The position numbers were made by a program, and so were the translations under genes. The notes under the pieces were generated by a model. That model searched no databases. It was not told the origin of the DNA and was given only the letters and a program-made list of their open reading frames with translations. DNA of 43,730 nucleotides, taken from the NCBI GenBank assembly GCA_023259115.1, contig JAHFQW010000014.1, positions 1 through 43,730 of the forward strand. Reading direction: 5' to 3'. This DNA is from an archaeon (lineage in GTDB: Archaea > Nanobdellota > Nanobdellia > Woesearchaeales > GW2011-AR9). Shown piece by piece: positions 1 through 41,007 of the stretch (position 1 is the stretch's first letter; the number at the start of each line of letters is the position of its first letter).

Positions 1-15
1 TAATGACTCATTTTC

Positions 16-151
16 CACAAGACAAAACAGCGATTTTGTCTGTGCACAAATAGGATAGTTTTCCTATTTTGTGTGTACAGAAATGTGATAGCTTTCACAT
101 TTCTTGTAAGCAAATGTGTGAATTAATATTCGAATAGTTAACACATTTGCT
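16..151. repeat. Cluster of four consecutive hairpins
   Basis: Four adjacent inverted repeats fill this stretch downstream of the nucleotidyltransferase gene. Arms are 16-27/34-44, 45-55/62-73, 77-88/95-107 and 109-119/141-151. The first three are each 29-31 nt, with 6-nt loops and one unpaired base in one arm. The second and third share the core GATAGYTTTC around the loop. The fourth is a perfect 11-bp stem (AGCAAATGTGT) with a 21-nt loop and is followed by ATATAATG. Stem sequences differ between hairpins, so these are not copies of one repeat unit. Function is unknown. RNA 3' elements, terminators or a repeat family are all possible, and the window edge may cut the cluster. Confidence 0.7.
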
Positions 152-185
152 ATATAATGAAAAAGAAATAATAATGTTTCTATCA

Positions 186-1587: not shown

Positions 1588-1599
1588 GGTTATAGATAA

Positions 1600-1727
1600 T
1601 AGCAAATCTCATTAATTCAAGTCACTGGCGTTCGTGACTTGCTTAACAGCAAGTATTGAACAATTGTGAGATTTGCTAGAATAGTAAATCACAACTAAAA
1701 TGTTCAAATATCATTGTGATTTACTAT
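1600..1727. repeat. Two adjacent long-stem hairpins of the AGYAAA family
   Basis: The first hairpin pairs 1600-1611 with 1667-1678 (12 bp, TAGCAAATCTCA and its exact complement). The second pairs 1681-1694 with 1714-1727 (14 bp, ATAGTAAATCACAA and its complement, loop 19 nt). Inside the first, 1618-1625 pairs with 1634-1641 (8 bp). The overlapping 1638-1643 could instead pair with 1648-1653, so two inner folds exclude each other. The block lies between the glutaredoxin stop and the DoxX start. It resembles hairpins at 109-151, 29122-29164 and 40926-40965. Function is unknown. Confidence 0.75.
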
Positions 1728-1779
1728 AAGCAGGAATTATGAATTTGTGGAAGCGATAGCTGATGGAGAGATTTGCAAA

Positions 1780-28538: not shown

Positions 28539-29090
28539 ATGATAACACGCAGAATTTTATCGGAAGAAATAGGAGAACGACACTTTATATCACTAGATAA
28601 AAAGTATTCCGACCGCAATCCAGAATTTAATTTGGAGTATCGAGTAATCATTAGCGATGTTGGTGATTATCAGGTGATGAGGAAGGGTGGATTTTCAGCC
28701 CCTACAACCGAGGTATATAGATATGAGATAGGCGGTGAAATCCTCTTCAAGCCACTTCAAGATGATGCAAGTATAAATGACGAGTGGATGAATTATGCGC
28801 TTAAGGTCGAATATCAGCAAGGAGAACCTAATGGAACTGGCGTAAAACCATCTGAGACAGAGGGTACAGTTTTTCATTTAGGAAAATCGGAGTTAGAATC
28901 ACTGTGTGGCACATATTTTCCCTATTTAGGACTTCAAGGAAAGTTAGTCTTGGCAACTCTAAAACCTCTGCCTGGAGACACACCCAGGGGGGCTATCGTT
29001 GAATTAGTGAAAAAAGCAATGGAGAGAAGTGAGATACAAAAAATATCTAAAGCCCATCACTCTTTTTTGCAAGTATACTCACTCGCATAA
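28539..29090 (+). CDS. Hypothetical protein (183 residues)
   Basis: A soluble protein of unrecognised family, with mixed strand and helix content and several glycine turns (GGEILFKPLQDD, EGTVFHLGKSELESLCGTY). No signal peptide, membrane span or obvious catalytic motif is seen. A GAAGAGGT ribosome site precedes the ATG, and a TATA-like box lies about 65 nt upstream, so the transcript has a leader. A GC palindrome sits by the promoter, and a hairpin element starts at its stop codon. The ClpX-like gene shares the same 13-nt word AATAATTGATCAA at its stop. Confidence 0.7.
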   Translation: MITRRILSEEIGERHFISLDKKYSDRNPEFNLEYRVIISDVGDYQVMRKGGFSAPTTEVYRYEIGGEILFKPLQDDASINDEWMNYALKVEYQQGEPNGTGVKPSETEGTVFHLGKSELESLCGTYFPYLGLQGKLVLATLKPLPGDTPRGAIVELVKKAMERSEIQKISKAHHSFLQVYSLA

Positions 29091-29170
29091 ATAATTGATC
29101 AATACCTGCTCGTTCGTAATAAGCAAAGAACAGATTTATTGCTCAATTATTTGTGTTCTTTGCTATATAT
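29089..29170. repeat. Crossing inverted repeats at gene 3' end (hairpin family member)
   Basis: A perfect 11-bp stem pairs 29122-29132 (AGCAAAGAACA) with 29154-29164, loop 21 nt. A second perfect 10-bp pairing, 29089-29098 (AAATAATTGA) with 29143-29152, crosses it, so the two form a pseudoknot-like or alternative structure. The left arm overlaps the stop codon of the preceding gene. The right end is TTTGCTATATAT. The same layout recurs after the ClpX-like gene. Function is unknown. Confidence 0.7.
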
Positions 29171-40891: not shown

Positions 40892-41007
40892 ATAATTGAT
40901 CAAAATAAGGTTATTCAAGGTTCTTTATAGATAACTGCGTGCATAAAGTAACGCAGTTTACTATAAATATGTAGGTTACTATTCGATTATTTCACCTATT
41001 TACTATA
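40890..41007. repeat. Compound hairpin element after the ClpX-like gene
   Basis: The stop codon overlaps AATAATTGATCAA (40891-40903), the same 13-nt word found at the stop of the gene ending at 29090. A stem pairs 40926-40940 with 40951-40965 (13 of 15 bp, right end TTTACTATA). A second copy of the right end, TCGATTATTT (40983-40992) followed by CACCTATTTACTATATAT, matches the layout at 29143-29170, and TCGATTATTT can pair with 40890-40899 through one G-T wobble. The element runs into the 3' end of the small minus-strand frame. Confidence 0.6.

Follow-up and report, generated by a model that had tools for sequence, protein, structure and literature searches.

The question raised by this locus is whether a handful of intergenic hairpins with conserved ends and changing stems belong to an RNA, a mobile repeat or a protein-binding DNA site. 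The window, that is the whole stretch of DNA analysed (43,730 nucleotides), makes up the entire contig C30 of an archaeal genome (G000) in 54 contigs. Perfect stems were found at 109-151 (11 bp), 1600-1678 (12 bp), 1681-1727 (14 bp) and 29122-29164 (11 bp), with a near-perfect one at 40926-40965, and the loops of three copies carry the motif TCRAWTA, all as given in the preliminary description. Counting palindromes with arms of at least 11 and loops of at most 60 in intergenic sequence (ORFs of 100 aa or more removed), the window held three in 27 segments (5,898 bases), compared to a mean of 0.14 (maximum 1) in 100 dinucleotide shuffles. In a five-contig sample covering 397,845 of the 1,574,476 bases (25%) of the genome, 65 were present in 262 intergenic segments (49,926 bases) as against 1.44 (maximum 5) after shuffling. 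The window hairpins are real and far above chance.

Dispersed repeats were first found by searching the genome with the window's own hairpins, and the anatomy common to the dispersed copies is TATAG-HP1-CTAATAAG-HP2-CTATA. The unit is an inverted pair of hairpins of ~94 nt, TA-TAG[HP1, ~41 nt]CT-AATA-AG[HP2, ~43 nt]CTA-TA, in which each hairpin measures ~41-44 nt, with a stem of 11-13 bp and a loop of ~17-21 nt, and a linker of 3-5 nt joins the two. Among 59 distinct elements the start is TATAG in 41, AATAG in six and TATAC in six, and 51 end in CTATA. The single hairpin, at first taken as the unit, did not hold up as such; the element is the inverted pair and the window hairpins are its halves. 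Those at 1600-1678 and 1681-1727 form the two halves of one element, and those at 109-151, 29122-29164 and 40926-40965 are one half each of elements at 76-154, 29074-29167 and 40926-41007. The window thus contains the following features:

1-154, plus strand: composite element cut by the contig start, with a hairpin array in the linker (21-40, 45-73, 79-104), followed by HP2 at 109-151 and a CTATA end.
1598-1728, minus strand: double-hairpin element with HP1 at 1681-1727 and HP2 at 1600-1678, the HP2 loop holding another hairpin array (about 1618-1653).
29074-29167, plus strand: double-hairpin element whose HP1 (about 29074-29118) has decayed, HP2 at 29122-29164 being intact.
40926-41007, plus strand: probable double-hairpin element with HP1 at 40926-40965 and a poorly paired HP2 at about 40968-41007.

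The first of these has copies 95-99% identical elsewhere in the genome, and its part at 76-154 was matched by a covariance model at E 1.2e-7. For the element at 1598-1728 the model gave E 1.5e-4 and folding a z of -7.9, and a 94% copy lies at C48:62178-62318. The values were E 7.6e-4 and z -2.1 for 29074-29167, and E 0.02, a weak match, with z -4.5 for 40926-41007. When five elements were folded as single-stranded DNA, four formed separate hairpins (z -4.5 to -9.2), and in the fifth, 29074-29167, the two loops are mutually complementary and pair with each other instead, which resembles the two alternative folds described for REPINs in the account cited (PMC3116915).

The alignment behind the covariance model comprises 15 elements from this genome and its relatives. 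In it 95.7% of 326 cells pair, and sliding the partner by 1-3 columns brings pairing down to 32-40%. Both sides have changed in 12 of the 22 pairs (29 cells, against a shuffled mean of 5.5), and stems that differ between copies yet still pair support the selection on structure that had been proposed. For arms and loops, 71 elements were collected, 59 of them distinct and 58 usable, one being dropped because in one of its hairpins fewer than 9 of 12 positions paired; the usable ones gave 17 arm families, separated by differences at more than 3 of the 24 arm positions. Across these families agreement between arms is seen at 153 of 170 positions within HP1 (shuffled 72), at 154 of 170 within HP2 (shuffled 90), and at 104 of 170 between HP1 and HP2 (shuffled 75; maximum of 2000 shuffles 98), figures whose significance is overstated in that the shuffles leave relatedness among families in place. 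Within an element, loop 1 is similar to loop 2 once the latter is reverse-complemented (score 133, shuffled 102, 5/5000), and uninverted the two show no likeness (87 against 85 shuffled). One relative's element (G079) carries TATAGCCTA in both loops and CTGCG in all its arms. Since arms and loops co-vary, HP2 is HP1 turned round and the two change together, the sequence changes of a lineage reaching both hairpins. In one subgroup (elements L196, L199, L200, L203, L211 and L188 of genomes G105, G045, G101 and G021) HP1 is mismatched two to three places into the stem (ACTC../..TCGT and similar) and HP2 is fully paired; the mismatches kept there could be a recognition feature.

The covariance model found 59 places in the window's genome at E<=0.01, in 53 clusters. 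These places are distinct, opposite-strand rows having been removed from a full list of 98 rows at E<=10 on both strands, and they include four of the five hairpins described at the outset, the fifth being matched weakly. Within the order, 44 of 145 genomes, this one included, had element matches. The preliminary description had named a genome without further copies, or equal palindrome counts in shuffled sequence, as outcomes that would speak against a family of hairpins; neither holds, because further copies exist and the shuffles fall short of the count. Using the HP1 pattern on one genome per species, we obtained 25 stretches, by title 22 from Woesearchaeota and one each from Nanoarchaeota, an "archaeon" and Flavivirga, the last being a self-palindrome without HP2. 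HP2 comes directly after HP1 in 21 of the 24 archaeal stretches; two others have a hairpin array in the linker and one an interrupted HP2 arm. Judged by this shared element, and by its genes for archaeal-type tRNA synthetase and GatD, the window's organism probably belongs to the Woesearchaeota. Two element patterns gave no stretches in viral_contigs, and a viral carrier sought through the small-hairpin pattern was set aside, the single viral_contigs stretch being apparently coding sequence and taken as chance. Genomes were termed "element-free" if they had no R1 match under strict filters; three of them (G012, G015 and G017) nonetheless gave short blast matches to the composite element.

Several lines of evidence bear on mobility. 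The window's genome holds a composite of ~328 bases, an element whose linker is occupied by a hairpin array, in copies 95-98.5% identical, and in the relative G021 five unrelated sites each carry a copy, all five being identical over 94 nt. A sister genome, G062, in which long flank matches to G021 are 83-91% identical, was searched with the joined flanks of four of these sites (L186 excluded). An orthologous flank was recovered for three, and the element was absent at all three: both flanks surround an AT-rich spacer at L187 and an unrelated stretch of some hundred bases at L185, and one flank only was present at L183. The joined-flank search did not find the L184 site in G062. The L187 and L183 sites were compared by reading the sequences, computed alignments being uninformative, and the comparison of the two genomes yielded no base-exact empty site for the 94-nt element. 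A target was exposed in nested insertions. The host linker CAAAG-TN-CTTCTTAGA is empty in nine forms (N being A in six, T in two and C in one) and filled in five, as CAAAG-TA-[TACC..GGTA]-TA-CTTC in three and CAAAG-TC-[TACC..GGTA]-TC-CTTC in two, and the linker array of the main element reads CTAA-TA-[CAAG..CTTG]-TA-AG compared to the empty CTAATAAG. This suggests a two-base duplication, with independent events perhaps as few as three. The ends of the 94-nt element are TA-rich, and TA as duplicated target is there indistinguishable from TA as part of the element. Support for the earlier proposal of a non-autonomous mobile repeat comes from the identical copies at scattered sites, from the sister species, which lacks the element where sites could be compared, and from nested insertions in which a dinucleotide is duplicated.

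Other repeat structures were also observed in this genome. At C24:10365-12303 a single flavoprotein-like gene lies between two composite elements that are nearly identical and point the same way, an arrangement reminiscent of a composite transposon. A separate repeat of 229 bases (C48:79632-79859 and C53:93774-94002, 94% identical), whose ends resemble inverted repeats (GTATGTATT..AATACATAC), is another miniature element. Contigs start or end inside copies of the composite element at window position 1, at position 1 of C47 and at the ends of C34, C21 and C5; the composite repeats probably break the assembly there and may explain some contig breaks.

It had been stated that all the hairpins lie 3' of genes. 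Of 70 strong hairpins 64 are outside ORFs of 100 aa or more, non-ORF sequence making up 10-18% of each contig. Where an intergenic hairpin has two flanking genes (60 cases), these are codirectional in 41, convergent in 8 and divergent in 11, a split much like that of the 220 intergenic gaps over 60 bases (131, 32 and 57), and as a family the hairpins are not characterised by a position 3' of genes. The orientation of 56 copies to their genes is likewise mixed, with 11 same, 19 opposite, 10 convergent, 10 divergent and 6 undecided. Beside the element at 1-154, positions 186-1074 of the minus strand encode a nucleotidyltransferase (weak MntA-like match) together with a small ORF, perhaps an MntA/HepT-type toxin-antitoxin pair.

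A structured RNA in transcripts, such as a terminator, stability element or processing site under selection for RNA folding, would fit the compensatory changes, the fixed length and the intergenic position. A 3' RNA element, one of the possibilities initially raised, is unlikely because the copies are intergenic in any orientation to genes, and it was rejected on orientation and placement. Copies also lie between divergent genes, five are identical at unrelated loci, elements are nested inside each other, and Rfam gave no match above the gathering score in 8 sources (64,317 bases), which leaves the RNA reading in any of these forms highly improbable. The palindromes might instead arise and spread with no enzyme, by template switching and snap-back synthesis at replication forks. 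In G021 one truncated copy (L219:1485-1539, contig C11 near 50817) consists of the first 33 nt of the element followed by an inverted copy of its own upstream flank, much as would be expected had synthesis turned back on itself at the loop. However, the fixed 94-nt length, TATAG and CTATA ends conserved across genera, and identical complete copies at unrelated sites all argue against an enzyme-free origin, which is very unlikely.

A further explanation places the element in the REP/REPIN class, its mobiliser being a Y1 (RAYT/IS200-like) transposase that acts on hairpins in single-stranded DNA. The plan is the same, an inverted doublet of tagged hairpins with covarying stems, and Y1 genes were found in 9 of 16 element-rich genomes compared to 2 of 16 others. 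However, 7 of the 16 element-rich genomes have no Y1 match, including the window's own genome and G021, both with recent copies, and no element lies within about 1.5 kb of any of 20 Y1 loci of relatives. Y1 transposase insertion is not known to make such target duplications, whereas the nested insertions look like two-base duplications. Y1/RAYT as sole mobiliser was not supported by the Y1 matches and loci, and we regard this explanation as unlikely on the whole. The window's genome had no match to PF01797 (Y1), PF13358 (DDE_3) or PF01609 (DDE_Tnp_1), so that IS630-type and DDE_Tnp_1 enzymes were also set aside as mobilisers; DDE_Tnp_1 occurs in 8 of the 16 element-rich and 5 of the 16 other genomes, and one of 12 DDE loci has an element, about 1 kb off and not at the locus end. 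No multicopy transposase was seen in the five-contig sample, because its other long repeats are diverged pairs and the 229-base repeat, and no autonomous copy was seen in that sample or at the G021 half-matches, where L219 and L220 are truncated elements beside ordinary genes. Twelve pairs of matching hairpins that might enclose a gene were listed in the sample, and the three spans opened held ordinary genes, which from their sequence we take to be flavoprotein-like, aminotransferase-like and YrdC/Sua5-like, with small ORFs. The mobilising enzyme may be too diverged for these models, lost, or supplied by a plasmid, virus or partner cell.

We consider it probable that the hairpins belong to a miniature transposon of Woesearchaeota that is non-autonomous and REPIN- or PATE-like, a lineage-specific enzyme recognising its two hairpin ends in trans. 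The element sits in intergenic sequence and in the linkers or loops of other such elements, and TA or TC is found duplicated in the clearest nested cases. The trans-acting enzyme would bind both hairpin ends, using folded rather than duplex DNA; the enzyme, this use of folded ends and the order of steps are what we infer, beside the structure, covariation, dispersal, recent copies and nested insertion described above. Each lineage has its own stem and loop sequence, and the joint change of all four stem arms and the two loops suggests co-evolution with a recombinase reading sequence as well as shape. The protein-binding DNA hairpin of the preliminary description is compatible with this miniature transposon, as a transposase end. 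More tentatively, and doubtfully, the elements might be a prokaryotic counterpart of mitochondrial hairpin elements: mini-transposons of fixed double-hairpin geometry with a lineage-specific stem and loop code, nesting in themselves across an archaeal order with a two-base target duplication, and moved by an enzyme that either belongs to a family with no known role in DNA movement or is supplied by a plasmid, virus or partner cell.

Hairpins that move with no transposase in sight have long been a puzzle in mitochondria and haloarchaea. Small archaeal genomes offer a large natural series, with recent identical copies and nested insertions that expose the target, and from the way the two ends change in step one can predict which features the missing enzyme has to read. 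Annotation of such intergenic hairpins as terminators or regulatory RNAs should be avoided.

Among the open-licence papers searched we found none on hairpin repeats in Woesearchaeota, and the element was compared with known systems as described in the parts of the papers cited here. Like REPINs and GTAG-tagged REPs with RAYT (PMC3116915, PMC3733652), it is a short intergenic palindrome in inverted doublets with a constant foot tag, with lineage-specific sequences, stems that differ between families yet remain complementary, and two alternative folds. Its tag, however, is TAG/TATAG, whereas that of REPs is GTAG (or CGTC), its stems and loops are longer (11-13 bp and 17-21 nt, with the linker of 3-5 nt), and its host is archaeal, with no RAYT or Y1 match in the window's genome and two-base duplications in nested cases; GTAG repeats have been reported in bacterial phyla (PMC3733652). 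Of the features that define REPs and REPINs, the inverted doublet is present, and the GTAG/CGTC tag and a repeat-flanked RAYT/Y1 gene are lacking. The PATEs and SMRs of Haloquadratum walsbyi (PMC3119063) are likewise archaeal, transposase-free, short and inserted into each other; SMR-A is about 110 bp, and PATEs have near-terminal palindromes. In that account PATEs have no terminal inverted repeats and are of IS605-type origin, no duplications are given for IS605-type elements and PATEs, and SMRs have no target duplication. In contrast, the terminal repeats here are hairpins, both co-varying, and no parent transposon was found; ends that are inverted repeats and a genome with no Y1 match do not agree with a PATE.

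Mitochondrial GC clusters and repetitive or double hairpin elements (PMC4478555, PMC2800124) are also hairpins of ~42 nt, single or double, which merge and shuffle, have flanking repeats of two or three bases (AG, ACT in yeast) and, in these accounts, no known enzyme. The present element differs in its archaeal chromosome, fixed ~94-nt inverted doublet and coordinated change, and the likeness is one of plan only. Prokaryotic MITEs (reviewed in PMC10969869) are non-autonomous and mostly intergenic with inverted ends, and the element is indeed short, non-coding and dispersed with inverted ends; it differs in that each end is a near-perfect hairpin and no parent insertion sequence was found, the five-contig sample and the G021 half-matches having shown no autonomous transposon that shares its ends. 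Target duplication, a MITE feature, may account for the TA..TA or TC..TC at all five filled nested sites, perhaps from few independent events, and is ambiguous at the TA-ended 94-nt elements. Because defining features of each are lacking, the element is set apart from REP/REPINs and PATEs. It is a mobile, structure-conserved double hairpin that belongs in kind with REPINs, PATEs/SMRs and mitochondrial hairpin elements, and in the way it works it resembles a REPIN or a MITE.
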